From Candidatus Methanomethylophilaceae archaeon (GTDB taxonomy: Archaea > Thermoplasmatota > Thermoplasmata > Methanomassiliicoccales > Methanomethylophilaceae): a stretch of DNA of 64,000 bases. A model generated the notes under the pieces. That model searched no databases, was not told where the DNA came from, and worked only from the letters and a program-made list of their open reading frames with translations. Location: positions 62,001 to 126,000 of the forward strand of contig JAFXUX010000008.1 of assembly GCA_017524805.1 (NCBI GenBank). Direction: 5' to 3'. Both the position numbers and the translations under genes were made by a program. Shown in pieces: positions 38,071 through 45,791 of the stretch. Numbering within the stretch: position 1 is the stretch's first letter; the number at the start of each line of letters is the position of its first letter.

Positions 38071-38076
38071 GATGAG

Positions 38077-38149
38077 TGCTCGCGACGGGATTCGAACCCG
38101 TGTTGAAGCCTCGAGAGGGCTTCATGATTGGCCGCTACACCACACGAGC
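38077..38149 (-). tRNA. tRNA-Glu (anticodon CTC)
   Basis: A 73-nt cloverleaf. Acceptor GCTCGTG/CGCGAGC, anticodon stem AAGCC/GGCTT, loop CTCTCGA with anticodon CTC, T-arm ACGGG-TTCGAAT-CCCGT. It borders the accessory island that begins about 200 bp away. Confidence 0.92.
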
Positions 38150-38358
38150 ACAGGCAATCCGCCCATCGATTGATAATATATAAAAGTTTTTAGTGATGGC
38201 GTTCAATCTGATTTCTATTTCAGGCTTGCAGATCCATCCGCGGAGGTTCAGTCCATTTCAGACGCCCAACAATTGTCTTGCGAGGATGTCTTAGCATAGG
38301 CAGTCGCCACGTCCGACCGTATGCGCGGAGCCACCGGGATGTCGATTCATTGGTGTCA
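38150..38358. other. Gene-free stretch between tRNA-Glu and the MITE-like element
   Basis: The first 30 bp hold the AT-rich promoter of tRNA-Glu. The rest has no open frame of note, no clear repeat and no recognisable RNA; I see nothing further in it. Confidence 0.4.
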
Positions 38359-38427
38359 GGTAACTATTCAGGACCTTCGTAGTAGCACTATAGTAAAATA
38401 TCATTACGATAGGTCCTGAATAGTTAC
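38359..38427. mobile_element. 69-bp MITE-like element related to the IS66-type right end
   Basis: It begins GGTAACTATTCAGGACCT and ends AGGTCCTGAATAGTTAC, a terminal inverted repeat of about 17 bp. Its reverse complement matches the last about 60 bp of the IS66-type element at 42261-42322 with only two or three differences, but the inner boundary is converted into a second terminal repeat. That is how non-autonomous miniature elements look. The sequence up to the QueC-like gene (38428-38604) shows no other feature. Confidence 0.75.
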
Positions 38428-38604
38428 AAACAATTCATGATGGCCTGTGCCTCAGCGCCCGGCCGAAGACTGGGATTCTTCACTGTCTGGCGGAGAGGTC
38501 CAAACTACAACTTATTGCAGGGAAAAAAAGGTTTAGGGCTGTTCGCGAAGGCCTTTGGCCGCCGATACCGCTCCGATTGCAAGACATCGGAGTGGGATCG
38601 GCTT

Positions 38605-40110
38605 TCAGTTCGTTTTTCTGAGGCAATCATCGAGATATATCACAGGCTTATCGTAAGTGAACATAATTTCTTTGACGATGCCTATGGAATAGGACGTTGA
38701 ATTGCAGACTACAACTGCATCGAACTCGGAATCGTTCTGATTCATCAGCGATATGAGATCTGATGTTGTAGATATGGCCGAATGGATTTTGATTCCCATA
38801 TCCTCCAATAAGCGATTCACCATATCCGTGCTGTAATTGTCGCCGTATACCATCACAGAACGATACTTTCCTTCTGCCAAAGAATCTGACAGTTTCTTCA
38901 ATGCTTGTTTGGAGTTTTTCTTCCATTTCTTCTGGTTCTGAGTGTATTCAGCTTTGTTATTGATGGAATGACGCTCTTGGAACAGATCTTTAATCGCTAC
39001 CTGGATTCCGACCTTGTCCTTGAGGTATTTGCATTTCTTCTTTTCGGCCAGCTGCAGAATGTCTTTGCAATAATAGTCGTTGTTCTGCGCATTCAATTGC
39101 AGCCACTCGAAGTAGCTCGACCTATTTTTCTTATAGTAATCGATGTTGAAGACGTCGGAGAAGTTATCCAATTTGCCTATGAGATCCAGCGTGGTCAGAG
39201 TACGCCTGCATTTCTTGCACAGCCCGCAATTGAACGGTTCCCTCATGCACACATGCAGATATTTTTGGGCGATCTCATAATCGGCCAATTCTATGGTCTT
39301 CTCGATTCTGGAAGCTTCGACAGGCAAGGGGAATATCGAAACCTCTTTGGTCGAAAATACCGTCGCCAAGAACATCTCAGCGTATTCGCCGCCTTTCGAA
39401 TTGTTCACCAGATCCAGGTCCTGTATGGTGTACGTGGTTGCAGAATAATATCTCCCAATGAATTTCTTTACCAGATTGACGCAAGCTATGTGATAATATG
39501 TCAGTCTGGTGCCTCTTTCTCCGGGGAAAATCGATGCTATATTCGATTTGATATAAACCAACGGAAGATCTATTTCGTTGACGAGTTTCTCGACCTTCTT
39601 CAGCAGATAGTCTTCGGTCTTATCGTGGTTGCGATAGACGTTGAAATCCCCCACATCGAATACGAAACTGCAATCAATCTTAGAATCCTCGGAGTTCCCA
39701 TATTTTTCCAGAACATACAAAGAATCGATTCCCATTGACAACCCTGCGCCGGTCATCTTCTGGGTGCGGTTGCTCTTTGCGGCGATTTTGGATTTGGCAA
39801 CCACATTGATCTCGCTTAAGGTCCTGTCATATTTCACGACAGCCGGTATGAATATGTTTCTGATATTGAACAGGAGATCCTCCGACACATCGCCCTCGCA
39901 CACTATATCGTGGTGGTGTTTGATGGCGCCAGGAAGAAGGGATATAAGAAAAGGGTCGCAGTCCTCGCTGGGCTTCATCTTTTTTACCCAATCTCTCCCT
40001 CCCTCATATTTGACCTCTATCTCGAAAAAACACTCATGCTCATTGTTATCCACGACAATCTTCGATGTGACCTTATTCTTCTGGATGGTGGGGCGGCCTA
40101 TTGTTATCAT
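38605..40110 (-). CDS. QueC-like PP-loop ATPase, accessory, unknown function
   Basis: 501 residues. TGAGLSMGIDSLYVLEKYG (about 125-143) is a variant PP-loop (usual SGGxDS), and CMREPFNCGLCKKCRRTL (about 300) matches the Cys-rich end of QueC-like domains. A further about 190 residues follow, ending in a Rossmann-like half (SVMVYGDNYSTDMVNRLLED). Such proteins occur in variable loci and may adenylate or amidate a substrate. Coding DNA is clearly AT-richer than its neighbours. ATG 40110 lies about 26 bp from ATAATAAATAG; the gene stands alone between the MITE and the IS. Confidence 0.65.
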   Translation of the reverse strand: MITIGRPTIQKNKVTSKIVVDNNEHECFFEIEVKYEGGRDWVKKMKPSEDCDPFLISLLPGAIKHHHDIVCEGDVSEDLLFNIRNIFIPAVVKYDRTLSEINVVAKSKIAAKSNRTQKMTGAGLSMGIDSLYVLEKYGNSEDSKIDCSFVFDVGDFNVYRNHDKTEDYLLKKVEKLVNEIDLPLVYIKSNIASIFPGERGTRLTYYHIACVNLVKKFIGRYYSATTYTIQDLDLVNNSKGGEYAEMFLATVFSTKEVSIFPLPVEASRIEKTIELADYEIAQKYLHVCMREPFNCGLCKKCRRTLTTLDLIGKLDNFSDVFNIDYYKKNRSSYFEWLQLNAQNNDYYCKDILQLAEKKKCKYLKDKVGIQVAIKDLFQERHSINNKAEYTQNQKKWKKNSKQALKKLSDSLAEGKYRSVMVYGDNYSTDMVNRLLEDMGIKIHSAISTTSDLISLMNQNDSEFDAVVVCNSTSYSIGIVKEIMFTYDKPVIYLDDCLRKTN

Positions 40111-40358
40111 GTGGCTGCCTAATAAGATGCACCTATTTATTATGACCTTCAAACGTATTATGTTTGAATGGTTTATGCGTCATTGCCATGTCCGCTATAA
40201 TAAATAACGTCAAGATAATACGGCTTCCATCTACTCTTTTAAAGAAACCGACCATGACGCTCGCTCTTTCAGCATGCGATATTATTTTCTTTTGGTAACT
40301 ATTCAGAACCCATCTTCACTATAGTTTTACATGCGCCGATCAGAGTGGTAGACAAATA

Positions 40359-40384
40359 CATAGGCATAATATATTATGCCTATG
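40359..40384. repeat. 26-bp perfect palindrome in the IS upstream region
   Basis: CATAGGCATAAT and its exact reverse complement, with no central gap. It lies 55 bp upstream of the first IS gene. A second perfect palindrome follows 10 bp later; both share ATAGG...CCTAT. Likely operator or transposase-binding sites. Confidence 0.8.
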
Positions 40385-40394
40385 GAGATAAGTA

Positions 40395-40414
40395 ATAGGT
40401 ATATATATACCTAT
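40395..40414. repeat. 20-bp perfect palindrome containing the IS promoter
   Basis: ATAGGTATATATATACCTAT reads the same on both strands. Its TATATATATA centre is 25-35 bp before ATG 40439 and is therefore probably the TATA box itself; a protein bound to the palindrome would block it. Confidence 0.75.
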
Positions 40415-40438
40415 GCATATGTGGATTCGAAGATAGCC

Positions 40439-40834
40439 ATGTCCATAGTGAAGATGAAGAACAAGAAGACGGGGGTGACCTACGTCTATGAATCCACATC
40501 GTACTGGGATAAGGAAAAGCGCCAGCCTCGCAACAAGCGCAGGCTCATCGGGAAGCTGGATCCAGCCACAGGCGAGATTGTCCCCACCGGGAGGAGAGAG
40601 CCGGCCAAAGGGCCTGTTTCGATGGGCGGCGGCACGCCCGAACCATCGGACTTCGGGCCCGATATGGGAGCATCCATCGACGAGAGGGAGGCCGAGATAC
40701 TCGAGCTCAGGAAAAGGGTCCTCGAGCTCGAGATCCAGCTCGGGAAAAAGACTGCGGCGCTGGAAAGGATCAGGCGCGCCCTAGACTCCTGCTCTGAGCG
40801 AGAACATGAGCGGATCCGAGAACGCACGTCCTGA
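40439..40834 (+). CDS. IS66-type accessory protein
   Basis: 131 residues. The N-terminal part (KNKKTGVTYVYESTSYWD, KRRLIGKLDPATGEIVP) resembles the N-terminus found in transposases of archaeal IS1634/IS4-like and IS66-like elements. The C-terminal 45 residues form a coiled coil (EAEILELRKRVLELEIQLGK). The gene is intact and overlaps the transposase start by 29 bp. It is probably a DNA-binding or regulatory partner of the transposase. Confidence 0.65.
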   Translation: MSIVKMKNKKTGVTYVYESTSYWDKEKRQPRNKRRLIGKLDPATGEIVPTGRREPAKGPVSMGGGTPEPSDFGPDMGASIDEREAEILELRKRVLELEIQLGKKTAALERIRRALDSCSEREHERIRERTS

Positions 40835-42277
40835 TGCCAGCAGAGAGGAGCTGCTTGCGGAAATCGAGTCCCTGAGACTGGAGTGCAGGGCCAAGGACGA
40901 GACGATCAAGGCCCTCCAGGAGAGGATCAAGGAGTTCGAGGGTAGGGTGAGGATGAACTCCGCGAACAGCTCCAAGCCCCCTTCCAGCGACGGCTTCATG
41001 TAGCCGTCGCCCAAGAGCCAGCGCGTAAGGAGCGGAAAAAGGCCAGGCGGGCAGCAGGGGCATGAGAGGCACAACATGAAGCTCCCGGCTGAGCCGGACG
41101 AGGTGATTCGCTGCATCCCCAATAGGTGCTCGGGATGCCAAGGCCTGGCCGGATGCATCTCCGGCCAGGCTTTCGAAGTGGCGGAGAGCAGATATGTGGT
41201 CGACGCCGTGATGGAAGTGAGGGTGCGCGAGTACAGGGCGATGCGCGTGAAGTCGTGCCCCGTGGACGGGCGTCGCGGCGTGTCGATTGGGAGCTGCGGC
41301 CAATTCCCAGAGGGGGTGAGAGCGCACGTCCAGTACGGCGATTCCTTCGCTGCTGTGGCCGGGATTCTCAACACCTACGGAGCGGTCAGCACATCCCGCG
41401 TCAGCGACCTGATACGCAGCATGTTCGGGGTCTCCTTGTCCGTCGGGACTGTGGATTCCATGTTGCGCAGATGCGCGGAGTGCGCCGAAGAAAGCCTGGA
41501 GGGCGTCAGTGAAAAATCGTCGAATGCGACGTCTCCAACTCGACGAGACCGGAGTGAGATGCGGTGGCAAGCTGATGTGGGTCCACAGTTCCTCGACGCC
41601 GCAGTTCACCTACCAGACTGTCAGCGAGAAGCGCGGGACAGAAGGCATATACGACAACGGGGTCCTCAAGGATTTCCGGGGGATAGCGGTCCATGACTGC
41701 TGGCACCCTTACTGGAATTTCTGGAGGGCGAAGCACGCTGTCTGCTGCGCGCATCTGCTGAGGGAGCTTACGGGTGTGGAGGAGATGGAGCCGGGCCATG
41801 AATGGCCACGGCGTTTCAGAAGCCTTCTCCTGGACATGAAGTCCGAAAAAGAGGCAGCCCAAGCCGATGGGAAGGATTCTCTGGACGCGAAGCAACTGCA
41901 GCGTTTCGACGATCTGTACGACGAGATCATCCAATTGGCAGATTCCGAGCGCCCTCCCCCGCCGGGACCCCGGAGTGAAAAGGAGGGGAAAACGCAAGCT
42001 GGGGAAGGAGCGCGCTCTCATAGAGCGCCTCCGCGCCTTGAAGGGGTCCGTGACCCTCTTCGTCCATGATTTCAGGGCTCCATTTGACAACAACCAGGCG
42101 GAACGCGATGTTCGCAATCTGAAGACGAAGGTCAAGGTCAGCGGATGCTTCCGCACCAAGGAAGGGGCTAGGAGGCATCTGCAGGTGATGTCGTACATCA
42201 GTACGGCCAGGAAGCAAGGCGGGAACGCCTTCGAATCATTGGTGACGGCTCTTTCGAACCATCAGGACCTATCGTAA
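40806..42277 (+). pseudogene. IS66-type transposase, broken
   Basis: IS66 homology is continuous only across three frames. An N-terminal coiled coil and NSSKPPSSDGF are followed by TAG at 41001-41003; the same frame continues PSPKSQRVRSGKRPGGQQGH. A +1 shift near 41505-41515 (after ECAEESLEG) leads to LQLDETGVRCGGKLMWVH, the catalytic region. A second +1 shift near a C-rich run (about 41955-41975) leads to NNQAERDVRNLKTKVKVSGC and the end. One amber plus two shifts indicate decay. The last codons coincide with the inner part of the right inverted repeat. Confidence 0.8.
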
Positions 42278-42364
42278 TGATATTTTACTATAGTACTACT
42301 GCGAAGGTCCTGAATAGTTACCAAACTACAAACGTTAATTTAGAATGAAAGTAGAACTATAGTT

Positions 42365-43333
42365 TCACGGTTTTATCTTGTGGTATTCCAAGGTCGTCCA
42401 GTCTCCGGCAGACATAGCGACAAGCTCGGCGATATGCACTGTTGGCAGGCCTTCCGGGCAGTCCTCGTATCTTATGAGGCACATCGGGCATCCAACCACG
42501 ATGAATTCGGCGCCGGCGCATTCCGCCTCGCGCTCTTCCATCAGTTTTTCTGATTGGGGAGAATACTTTCCGCAGCATCCCATTTTCGAGTTCACAACCT
42601 TGCATCCCATAGATTCCACGATGGCTCTCATCTCTTTGCCGAATCTCATCGCGGAGCATCCGGGCTCGATGGCGACTTTCACAGAATCGCTGAATTTGGG
42701 CAGGGAATCCAAGCGCTCCGCCAGATACGGAATGATGTGGACCGCATCTACACCCGATTCATTCAGATCGTCGCTGCATCCGCAGCATAGGGCTATCAAA
42801 CTCTTGCCTTTCGCAGCGGCTCCCATTGAGCTCTTGTATCTCCGTCTCTCGAACTCTGTCATCTCGCGGAATTGCGGGGGATGCATGCAGCAGGTATTCC
42901 CTTCGAGTTCTCTGCATCCGACACCGATGGCTTTCATGGCTTTGGACGCCGCGTATTCCACATATGGGACTTTGCATTTGACCATGCACCCCGGCATGAT
43001 GTACGCGTCGTCTCCTGTCCATTCGGGCTTCAACTCTCTTGAGGGGACGTCATCCATGGGTTGGGCATACCCTGTATCCTTGAAAGCCTGGGATACGCGC
43101 AGTCCTTTCGCGATGCTGATCAAATCCCTCATGACGGTGAAGGGATCGGTTCTGCGGCAGACTCTGGAGCAATTCCCGCAGGCGATGCATTGGAGGATGT
43201 CGCGGTCGTTTCCGATCATGATCTCTTTCGGGTCGCACCCCCCGTGCTTCAGCGACGGGCATACCAGGGAGCATTTCCCGCATCCGATGCATTTCATGCG
43301 GAGAGAATCGATCTCATCCTGCAGCGTATTCAT
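42365..43333 (-). CDS. HdrD/GlcF-like iron-sulfur protein
   Basis: 322 residues. Two [4Fe-4S] motifs near the start (CIGCGKCSLVCP, CIACGNCSRVC) are followed by two CCG-type domains (CMVKC with NTCCMHPP, and PGCSAMRF with GCCGKYS and CPMC). This is the layout of HdrD, GlcF and related electron-transfer subunits; it is shorter than methanogen HdrD. It could be a second heterodisulfide-type subunit or the partner of a flavoprotein such as the GlcD-like enzyme. ATG 43333 gives a normal N-terminus. It starts 43 bp beyond the IS right end. Confidence 0.78.
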   Translation of the reverse strand: MNTLQDEIDSLRMKCIGCGKCSLVCPSLKHGGCDPKEIMIGNDRDILQCIACGNCSRVCRRTDPFTVMRDLISIAKGLRVSQAFKDTGYAQPMDDVPSRELKPEWTGDDAYIMPGCMVKCKVPYVEYAASKAMKAIGVGCRELEGNTCCMHPPQFREMTEFERRRYKSSMGAAAKGKSLIALCCGCSDDLNESGVDAVHIIPYLAERLDSLPKFSDSVKVAIEPGCSAMRFGKEMRAIVESMGCKVVNSKMGCCGKYSPQSEKLMEEREAECAGAEFIVVGCPMCLIRYEDCPEGLPTVHIAELVAMSAGDWTTLEYHKIKP

Positions 43334-43480
43334 GGAGATGCCATCGCGAATCACCGTATAAACTGATGGCTCAGAAAGGCATGGCCGCACACCGCTGTGT
43401 TTTGGCCCATCCAAATTATTAATAAAATGGCACGATATTATTAACTCAGAGATTTCCGATGGAATCGGGGGAGTTTTACG

Positions 43481-43864
43481 ATGGGAATAGTCAGCATCTC
43501 GTTGAACGATGAGAATCTGGATGCTCTTGAGAGGATTCAGAAGGCATATGGTCTCAGCGGACGGTCAGAGGCGGTCCGCGCATCGATAGGGGCCGCTTTG
43601 GCGGATATCCGCGAGATAGAAGAGATGGAAGGGCAGGTGGAGGGGGTTCTCGTCATAGTCCGCAGGAACCACGACGATCCGTGGATGATACGTCTGCAGG
43701 CGAAGTATGAGCGGGCCATCAAGACCCAGTTGCATTCGCATCTGCGGGATCACAAATGCCTTGAGGTCATGGTCATCTCATGCGACTCTCCCGATCTCAG
43801 CAAAATGCTCCGGGACATCAATTCCGAAGGAAAAGCCGATTATGTGAAATTCGTACGCGGATGA
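43481..43864 (+). CDS. nikR: NikR-type nickel-responsive regulator
   Basis: 127 residues. A ribbon-helix-helix DNA-binding part (SISLNDENLDALERI, SGRSEAVRASI) is joined to an ACT-like metal-binding domain. The nickel ligands are visible: HSH in QLHSHLRDHKCLEV and the Cys of HKCLE. It probably represses nickel uptake genes, which are not in the window. GGGGGAG precedes the ATG. The palindromic NikR operator (GTATGA...TCATAC) is not seen nearby. Confidence 0.88.
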   Translation: MGIVSISLNDENLDALERIQKAYGLSGRSEAVRASIGAALADIREIEEMEGQVEGVLVIVRRNHDDPWMIRLQAKYERAIKTQLHSHLRDHKCLEVMVISCDSPDLSKMLRDINSEGKADYVKFVRG

Positions 43865-43955
43865 GGTTTACCATATTTTATTAATAAAGAACGTGTTCAC
43901 CTCCAAGGGGATAATCTTGCGCAATGGGAGGGATGCGATTGAACGTTCCAAATCT

Positions 43956-45791
43956 ATGCTCAGCTTTCTTGGCGGCGCTCTCAATAAAGGCAAGCAGATG
44001 CTAGGCGGAGGCATCAGAGAAGGCAGCGCAAACAAAAAGTTTCAGGATATTCTGCCGAATCCGAGCGATTACAAAACTATAAGCACTCCTGCAGGCGACA
44101 TCTTCACCCACAAAGATCCTTCTGCGGAGATCATTTACCAGACCTTCACAGAAGCTCCTATTCCGCCGGAGACGCAAGTGGTGAAGGATAAATCCACGCA
44201 GAAGAAGGATTCCATTTCCAAAAAGGGGAGGGATTACGTCCCCAAAGGCAAAGGCTTCGAGGTCTCCACTCTCTTAGACAGCCTTCCGCAGAGGTCCAGG
44301 ACTTCAAACTGCGATGACCTGCTGAAGGATGGCAATCCGTTCGCGGAGTCAAAAAAGGCCGATGACGGAAAACTCTCTGCCAATGATCATTCAACCGATA
44401 ACACTGGCATAAGGAGCGGCCCGGAAATCTCAGACCATCAGGTCTTTTCGGCAGGCGGCACTGCCATCAACGCCACGGCGCAGACGGGGGCAGCGACTAA
44501 TATGAGAGTCAATCCCGGCCTCTCCAAGATTAAGGACGATGCCGAGGCTGTCCGGAGCGTGCCCACCGAAAAGGTGGAGGCCCCGGCCATTGCGAAGGCC
44601 GACGATGAAACCGTCGAGGCCGTGGCTGTCCGGAACGTACCCATCGAAAAGGTGGAAACTTCAGTCATCGATAAAGACGCCGATGAAATCGTCGAGGACA
44701 CGCCGGTGCCAGCGGCTCCGAAGCCCGATGCTGAGAAGAAGGAAGAGCCTGTTTCGAAGGGTTCTGAATCGATCTGGAAGAAGATGGTCATTCCCAAGCT
44801 CAGGACCATATTCTTGCCGGCATCCTGCGGCATCCTCATGCTTTCTCCTCCAACCTCCAATTTCGTCGCGCCAAAGGAAAATGCGCATACGGGAAGGGTG
44901 ATCAAGCTTGGGCCGGCGGCAGTCATGCAGGCCACTCAAAATGTCATCATAATTGATCCCGTGAAGGTTCCGGACCCCCCTATCAAGGATCCCGGGCTCA
45001 ATACGGTGAAGCTGACATCCAAGAACGGCGAAAAAGCAGTCGTTCCCGAAGACAGCGACGAGATAATCGTTCCCAAAGATCTCAAGGAAAAGGATCTCTC
45101 GAAAGGCAAGGGAGAGGAAAAAGCTACCAAACCTAGCAAACCGCAAAAACCCGTTCATATCAATGGGACAAAGCCTGTGTTGCCGGAAAAGATTCCGACG
45201 GATCCGCTTAAGACCGAAAAGACGGACGCAACCAAAGCAATCAAAAAGCATGATGATGGCGCCGTAATTTACCAGACGATCGAGACGATCAAGCTGACGC
45301 CTCCGAAGAGACGCAGATGCAAAGCCAACACCGCGCCTCCAAAGAGCATAATAGAGTTGGAAAAGGAACGCATCAAATCGATGACCGAGACGATTAATAC
45401 CGCAAAGACAGATGACGTCGAGAAACCCAAGGAATCTCTCAACAAGATAATGGCCGACTCCAAGAAGAATGAAGAGGTCTCGAAGAAACAGGCCGAAGTT
45501 CCCGAGATCAAGCAGACGCTTCCGGAGGAGGATGCCAAATCTGTCCCCGCCGTATCCGTCGCCAAGCTTCCGCCAATTATAATCGATGACGAGGTCGCCG
45601 ACATCATGCGCATCGTGGTCCCCGATCTGGATCCTGCGGACATAGTGGAAGAGGATGACTGCTGGGCTTTCAGCGATGGCATAGAGGAATCCATATTTGC
45701 CATCCCGAAGAAAGAGAGCTCAGGCGTCGTATTCTCATTCGGCGGCACCGAAGGGGAAGGCTGCGTTCGCTTCAGCTTCGGATGCATGTGA
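43956..45791 (+). CDS. Large low-complexity lysine-rich protein, unknown
   Basis: About 611 residues, mostly Lys/Glu/Asp/Pro/Ala and probably disordered; not recognised. VRSVPTEKVEAPAIAK and VRNVPIEKVETSVIDK (about 190-240) form a 26-residue tandem repeat. EIIYQTFTEAPIPPE near the N-terminus is echoed by AVIYQTIETIKLTPP near 430, and VVFSFGG/VRFSFG closes the protein. One hydrophobic segment (IFLPASCGILMLSPP) could touch a membrane. In-frame GTG 43893 and TTG 43917 are alternative starts; 43893 is too near the TATA-like TTTTATTAATAAAG. Confidence 0.6.
   Translation: MLSFLGGALNKGKQMLGGGIREGSANKKFQDILPNPSDYKTISTPAGDIFTHKDPSAEIIYQTFTEAPIPPETQVVKDKSTQKKDSISKKGRDYVPKGKGFEVSTLLDSLPQRSRTSNCDDLLKDGNPFAESKKADDGKLSANDHSTDNTGIRSGPEISDHQVFSAGGTAINATAQTGAATNMRVNPGLSKIKDDAEAVRSVPTEKVEAPAIAKADDETVEAVAVRNVPIEKVETSVIDKDADEIVEDTPVPAAPKPDAEKKEEPVSKGSESIWKKMVIPKLRTIFLPASCGILMLSPPTSNFVAPKENAHTGRVIKLGPAAVMQATQNVIIIDPVKVPDPPIKDPGLNTVKLTSKNGEKAVVPEDSDEIIVPKDLKEKDLSKGKGEEKATKPSKPQKPVHINGTKPVLPEKIPTDPLKTEKTDATKAIKKHDDGAVIYQTIETIKLTPPKRRRCKANTAPPKSIIELEKERIKSMTETINTAKTDDVEKPKESLNKIMADSKKNEEVSKKQAEVPEIKQTLPEEDAKSVPAVSVAKLPPIIIDDEVADIMRIVVPDLDPADIVEEDDCWAFSDGIEESIFAIPKKESSGVVFSFGGTEGEGCVRFSFGCM

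Follow-up and report, generated by a model that had tools for sequence, protein, structure and literature searches.

A miniature element derived from an IS66-family insertion sequence, and the gene between them, beside tRNA-Glu in a Methanomethylophilaceae archaeon

In a 64,000-nucleotide stretch of a Candidatus Methanomethylophilaceae archaeon genome (hereafter the window; positions 62001-126000 of contig C8 of G000, an assembly of 1.95 Mb in 47 contigs, 98% complete), a miniature inverted-repeat transposable element (MITE) and an insertion sequence (IS) of the IS66 family frame a single gene next to tRNA-Glu. Our comparison confirms that the MITE derives from the IS: 61 bp of it match the IS right end at 97% identity (E 2.8e-23), and the IS joined at two internal octamers gives a 68-nt sequence with 2 mismatches to the MITE. 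We consider it probable that an IS deletion produced the MITE, that the MITE was moved in trans, and that MITE, gene and IS accumulated as three pieces beside tRNA-Glu. The two elements are laid out as follows.

38360..38427, no strand assigned: palindromic MITE of 68 bp with perfect 16-bp terminal inverted repeats (TIRs), no open reading frame (ORF) and no target duplication, from the sequence match and a reading of the flanks
40295..42321, plus strand: IS66-family IS of 2027 bp, with TIRs at 40295-40310 and 42306-42321 and no matching 8-bp flanks
40376..40834, plus strand: ORF1 of the IS, 152 aa, homologous to ORF1 of a second copy on contig C31 and without a confident family match
40806..42277, plus strand: IS66 transposase pseudogene, in which AAG of the C31 copy is replaced by an in-frame TAG at 41001-41003 and which carries three 1-bp indels relative to that copy (about 41515-41965)

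The original prediction, made from this DNA alone, described a 69-bp miniature element sharing about 60 bp with the right end of an IS66 element 2 kb away. The element and the shared segment are real, while the size is 68 bp and the distance is right for the IS left end (1.9 kb from the MITE), the homologous right end lying 3.8 kb away. The MITE TIRs are GTAACTATTCAGGACC, and the positions at which the IS would be joined to give the MITE are marked by the only two occurrences of TCAG[A/G]ACC on its plus strand:

40303..40310, plus strand: TCAGAACC in the left TIR, the outer deletion point, from the octamer comparison
42262..42269, plus strand: TCAGGACC just upstream of the transposase stop, the sole further TCAG[AG]ACC on that strand and the inner deletion point

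When the 84 nt next to the right tip are shuffled, a near copy of the left-tip octamer (at most 1 mismatch) arises 2.9% of the time. An IS66-family IS would have entered the lineage, and one copy would have lost its middle between the left-tip octamer and its near-identical counterpart, 60 bp from the right tip; what remained would be the 68-bp MITE, complete at both tips. An IS66 transposase, presumably supplied by an IS of the C31 type, probably then moved it in trans to at least two places. Beside tRNA-Glu, the MITE, a horizontally acquired gene of QueC/QatC fold and the now-dead IS would have piled up in one intergenic gap, probably after separate arrivals.

For the birth step only, fold-back template switching at an inner GGTCCTGA would yield the same product from the IS right end alone. 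GGACC stands at both MITE tips, as at the IS right tip, whereas the IS left tip reads GAACC; however, a deletion with the crossover before this A/G difference also gives GGACC at both tips, and the data do not separate the two routes. We infer a deletion, and regard template switching as the less likely route, though one that keeps some weight.

Genome-wide counting, as proposed with the original prediction, gave just two full MITE copies, and likewise two copies of the IS. The second MITE (C6:3542-3609) is 97% identical to the first and has unrelated flanks. Both MITEs contain CACTATAG where the IS reads TACTATAG, a one-base difference, and because they share a base absent from the IS, the MITE has a lineage of its own; a second copy elsewhere in the genome thus indicates a small MITE family moved in trans. 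No further full copy was found in 100 genomes (its own and those of relatives), three other matching genomes sharing only 19-20 bp, and the MITE-core pattern had no match in viral contigs. The element is short and has TIRs, encodes no transposase, shares its tips with an autonomous element of the same genome, and occupies more than one unrelated site. A flanking target duplication is found at neither copy, which counts against simple insertion; the name MITE is nonetheless retained on grounds of structure and origin. MITEs formed by internal deletion of an IS, as described in excerpts of PMC3189936, are similar in being shorter than 300 bp, noncoding and bounded by perfect TIRs common with an IS of the same genome; two copies with unrelated flanks fit as well. 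Relative to those excerpts, the present case differs in having two copies only, no target duplications, an IS66 parent and an archaeal host. No IS66-derived MITE in this archaeal group was found in the literature searched, at the level of titles and abstract openings.

Two further observations concern similar elements. In G018, contig C45 (L215:2396-2541) carries a different MITE-like element of 146 bp with IS66-type tips and no target duplication, whose left 37 bp match the left end of the window IS at 94.6%. To the left of the C6 MITE (L106:3519-3560), GAAGGTTCTGA and, within the MITE, TCAGGACCTTC form the arms of an imperfect inverted repeat about GTAACTAT, which could suggest a former second tip in head-to-head position.

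The predicted IS66 parentage held. DDE_Tnp_IS66 (PF03050) matches pieces of the window IS at 1.7e-13 and 7e-10, and the C31 copy at 6.9e-35; the two copies are 70% identical in DNA over 2021 aligned bases. The C31 copy encodes an intact 490-aa transposase and is flanked by exact 8-bp direct repeats (CCTATAGT), and an 8-bp target duplication (ATACTGGG) was also read from a pair of contigs in another genome (G013 C4/C30). As judged from its broken transposase frame, the window IS is dead. Its in-frame TAG might be readable as pyrrolysine, since the genome has a match above cut-off to the pyrrolysyl-tRNA synthetase PylS and 3 of the 29 match rows of framed-gene relatives also contain one in-frame TAG. 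The three indels are fatal to the transposase notwithstanding such readthrough, unless they are assembly errors. A transposase search of seven clade genomes returned these two copies in G000 and a fragment in G018; the remaining five gave no match.

IS66 tips typically begin GTAA. The present element resembles the family in its DDE_Tnp_IS66 domain, its GTAA... tips, the possession of more than one ORF, and the 8-bp duplications at the C31 copy and the G013 contig pair; accessory ORFs amount to a single one upstream, with weak Pfam matches below cut-off. It differs in lacking a confident family match for ORF1, in the dead and duplication-free state of the window copy, and in size, at about 2.0 kb with two ORFs against 2.7-2.8 kb in IS66-family elements such as ISPpa5a and ISPpa7. 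PMC3281130 lists these two with 8-bp repeats.

The block is absent from relatives at the same site, which is anchored by two genes:

38076..38149, minus strand: tRNA-Glu (CTC), the left anchor of the ancestral site, adjacent to the block as originally noted and kept beside the 42365-43414 gene in five relatives
42365..43414, minus strand: heterodisulfide-reductase-like Fe-S protein gene, the right anchor

The right-flank gene is present in 29 of 31 genomes of the genus (own included), and the comparison covered 29 loci from 28 relatives. tRNA-Glu stands beside this gene in five loci, all of the same clade; a sixth clade relative (G006) is ended by a contig edge, and the other 23 loci have no tRNA-Glu there and so are not tests of the site. 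All five testable relatives have the empty site that the original prediction proposed to look for, with about 64-195 bp between tRNA and gene compared with ~4.2 kb here. MITE, IS and cargo gene had no match in any of the 29 loci; the case named as refuting that prediction, the cargo gene at this locus in relatives without both elements, was thus sought and not encountered. Against G026, the alignment of the left flank was equalled by 0 of 300 shuffles, which makes this flank ancestral up to position 38267 or beyond; the right flank, equalled by 2 of 300, is probably ancestral too. The MITE-cargo and cargo-IS stretches did not align significantly, 43 and 134 of 300 shuffles respectively doing equally well. 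The empty site in relatives supports the view that the block was inserted. Farther to the right, an ORF of 632 aa at 43893-45791 lies beside a NikR-like regulator (43481-43864) and has no match in a Pfam search.

Several points weigh against the accumulation account. An 8-bp target duplication, which plain transposition should leave, is absent at the window IS and at both MITEs: the window MITE has outer 8-mers GGTGTCAG and AAACAATT, the window IS TTCTTTTG and CAAACTAC, and the C6 MITE GGTTCTGA and CTTCCAAC. Since these do not pair, the flanks bear no visible sign that the pieces, singly or as a block, went in by plain insertion, and adjacent deletion or recombination must be assumed to explain the missing duplications. 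The 92 bp to the left of the MITE (38268-38359) cannot be placed in relatives, leaving the left edge of the insertion uncertain, and the transposase indels could be assembly errors in a genome of 47 contigs. As a cause of the missing duplications, an inversion was considered in which the MITE recombined with the IS right end, its inverted repeat; it was rejected because the four outer 8-mers fail to pair as it predicts.

The original prediction likened the block to a composite transposon that could mobilise the cargo gene. On this reading the gene would have come in as part of a unit of 3962 bp, with the MITE outer end and the IS right end working as one inverted pair on a transposase provided in trans. 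The ends are correctly oriented for this, the block is missing as a whole in all five testable relatives, and ancestral sequence can be followed up to 38267 from the left and to near the IS end from the right. However, the outer flanks GGTGTCAG and CAAACTAC mismatch, with no 8-bp duplication although relatives of the IS make one; no second cargo was seen between such ends in the 31 genus genomes (17 regions read), a check of the kind that the prediction had proposed; the nearest homologue of the framed gene (46%) is located elsewhere without these ends; and the window transposase is broken. Across the same genomes the TIR pattern occurs at 27 places, pairing only as IS or MITE, the remainder being single tips, some at contig edges. 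We find the composite transposon unsupported and do not favour it; as an explanation it is quite improbable. A known parallel, the TIME-COMPs and the integron mobilization unit as excerpted in PMC13367494, is similar in that MITE ends flank other DNA, and differs from the arrangement here in that one side is a full IS, the family is IS66 rather than Tn3, and mobilisation is hypothetical. A shorter version, less probable still, would take CAAACTAC at 38501-38508 and 42322-42329 as the target duplication of a unit that begins at 38509 with a degenerate left tip and ends where the IS does, leaving the MITE a bystander. The repeat extends without mismatch over 10 bp (CAAACTACAA), and 0.8% of 10-mers drawn at random from the window recur in the same stretch; the sequence at 38509 can be turned into GTAACTATTCAGG by 4 edits, a closeness equalled or bettered at 0.67% of window positions. 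Yet the comparison is post hoc. At 8 bp, recurrence is found in 8.6% of random draws; measured against the full 16-bp TIR the tip needs 7 edits, a distance equalled or bettered at 13% of positions; and the IS has a complete left tip of its own at 40295. The 10-bp repeat at 38501 and 42322 is a suggestive though weak candidate for a duplication. Taken as a whole, the arrangement is mostly ordinary, an accumulation of mobile DNA next to a tRNA gene.

The gene between the elements was examined through its homologues and predicted structure:

38605..40152, minus strand: PP-loop protein of QueC/QatC fold, 515 aa, 44% GC, from homologue alignment and predicted structure

It is AT-rich, as first described (window, 55% GC), and its origin is likely horizontal. 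Homologues at E 1e-5 occur in 9 of 100 genomes (own included), the closest, in G006, at 46% identity and the rest at 34% or less; the G006 homologue sits among unrelated genes, in a genome without these tips. The protein has no Pfam, NCBIfam or PADLOC match above cut-off; PF06508 does not match it, or any of 15 members, at E 0.1; PDB sequence searches gave no PP-loop match; and the one PHROGs match, a weak one to HNH, falls beyond the conserved core. In the alignment, G, D and S of S-x-G-x-D-S are invariant in 15 of 15 relatives, the phosphate loop here being SMGIDS, a variant of SGGxDS. A four-cysteine zinc-binding motif (C302, C309, C312, C315) is equally invariant, with spacing C-x6-C-x2-C-x2-C, where an excerpt of PMC13329287 gives C-x8-CxxCxxC for QueC. 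The predicted structure (mean pLDDT 75, pTM 0.69) had no Foldseek match at E 0.001; a second structural aligner, which re-ranks Foldseek's own candidates, gave as best alignments QatC at Z 14.6 (rmsd 5.1, 298 residues), Cap9 at Z 13.0 and QueC at Z 12.3. Relative to QatC, Cap9 and QueC as excerpted in PMC13279940 and PMC13329287, the protein shares the SxGxDS loop, the four cysteines and QatC-like N- and C-terminal extensions, and differs in its ~10% identity and in lacking a PF06508 match and a recognised QatB-like partner. Sel1 repeats occur in 7 of the 15 aligned relatives and are absent here. Separately, QueC-fold paralogues stand in tandem in clade-expanded arrays, several with C-terminal Sel1 repeats (L020-L048; G000 C33, C38 and relatives).

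Related loci in named records include those of Methanomethylophilaceae and Methanomassiliicoccaceae archaea; together with the PylS match, they suggest that the host is a methanogen of the Methanomassiliicoccales, of gut type. From 79 loci in named genomes, 24 were taken for neighbours, giving 93 neighbour ORFs of which 56 were scanned. The commonest families among these 56 were TupA-like ATP-grasp (7) and polysaccharide synthesis/flippase (5), followed by sugar-transfer ATP-grasp, pyruvyl transferase and F420-dehydrogenase beta-like proteins (4 each). The bacterial relatives of the gene lie in surface-polysaccharide operons, and the protein is likely an ATP-dependent ligase with a surface glycan, or the carrier of one, as its substrate. 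A role in defence is possible by analogy to QatC, though not backed by the neighbours: PADLOC on the 56 neighbours of bacterial relatives matched mad2, mad3 and mad8 in one member each. The qatABCD context is missing, the gene standing alone between the two elements with no QatB-like partner recognised beside it. The cargo was also tried as a phage-defence gene and rejected, with no PADLOC, Pfam or NCBIfam match to a defence family.

The element tips share a palindrome, ACTATAGT, with the host DNA around them:

38387..38394, no strand assigned: ACTATAGT inside the MITE
40318..40325, no strand assigned: ACTATAGT at the IS left end
42287..42294, no strand assigned: ACTATAGT at the IS right end
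42356..42363, no strand assigned: host ACTATAGT, 34 bp outside the IS, with counterparts in G026, which has no IS

These four copies compare with 0.12 expected in the window and all lie within 4 kb; genome-wide there are 85, against 27 for a reversed control. ACTATAGT is the core of an 18-bp palindrome, which in the clade reads GTAAGACTATAGTCTTAC / TAGAACTATAGTTCTA. Counts of ACTATAGTCTTAC (at most 1 mismatch, both strands, against control) were 33/5 in G000, 30/1 in G018, 32/0 in G026, 25/0 in G027, 23/1 in G001, 14/0 in G002 and 9/3 in G006, and 0-3 in each of the other 24 genus genomes; the palindrome is strongly enriched in the seven-species clade and nearly missing from the rest of the genus. 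Of 72 distinct contexts, a biased sample chosen as core or extension matches and including element tips, 34 are intergenic by a crude ORF rule and 38 lie within ORFs, some of which may merely encode Lys-Thr-Ile-Val. Column counts suggest the palindrome TARRACTATAGTYYTA. The sole literature match for ACTATAGT was unrelated by title.

The core (at most 1 mismatch) is found in 9 of 12 tip matches within the clade and 0 of 15 outside it (chance 1.9% per tip), where eight of the nine are in G000, several being mutual copies, and some outside tips are cut by contig ends. In G001, G002, G006 and G026 the palindrome is present and neither transposase nor tips were found, which argues for a host binder. 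Five insertions were compared (C8 MITE, C8 IS, C6 MITE, C31 IS and G018 MITE), and a perfect host copy lies within 34 bp of three (34, 15 and 16 bp, the G018 MITE at 16 bp). CCTATAGT, duplicated at the C31 copy, differs from the palindrome core by one base, and the two G000 MITEs have no host copy within 60 bp. At the window locus the host copies are older than the IS, being present in G026, where the IS is absent. The association of palindrome and insertions is post hoc and from a small sample. One reading, which we hold to be speculative and on balance unlikely, is that the IS66 and MITE tips took over a host DNA-binding site, GTAAGACTATAGTCTTAC, that lies ~23-33 bp inside the tips and also marks sites of element insertion, so that a host regulator would steer both activity and targeting; in that reading GTAAGACTATAGTCTTAC is probably the operator of a clade-specific host protein.

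The locus offers a base-level record of an IS66 element giving rise to a MITE in an archaeon, with the dead parent alongside and a live relative elsewhere in the genome. If the palindrome common to tips and host genome is the site of a host protein, it would provide a simple test of host-steered transposition in methanogens, and this link may be of more consequence than the MITE-IS arrangement itself.

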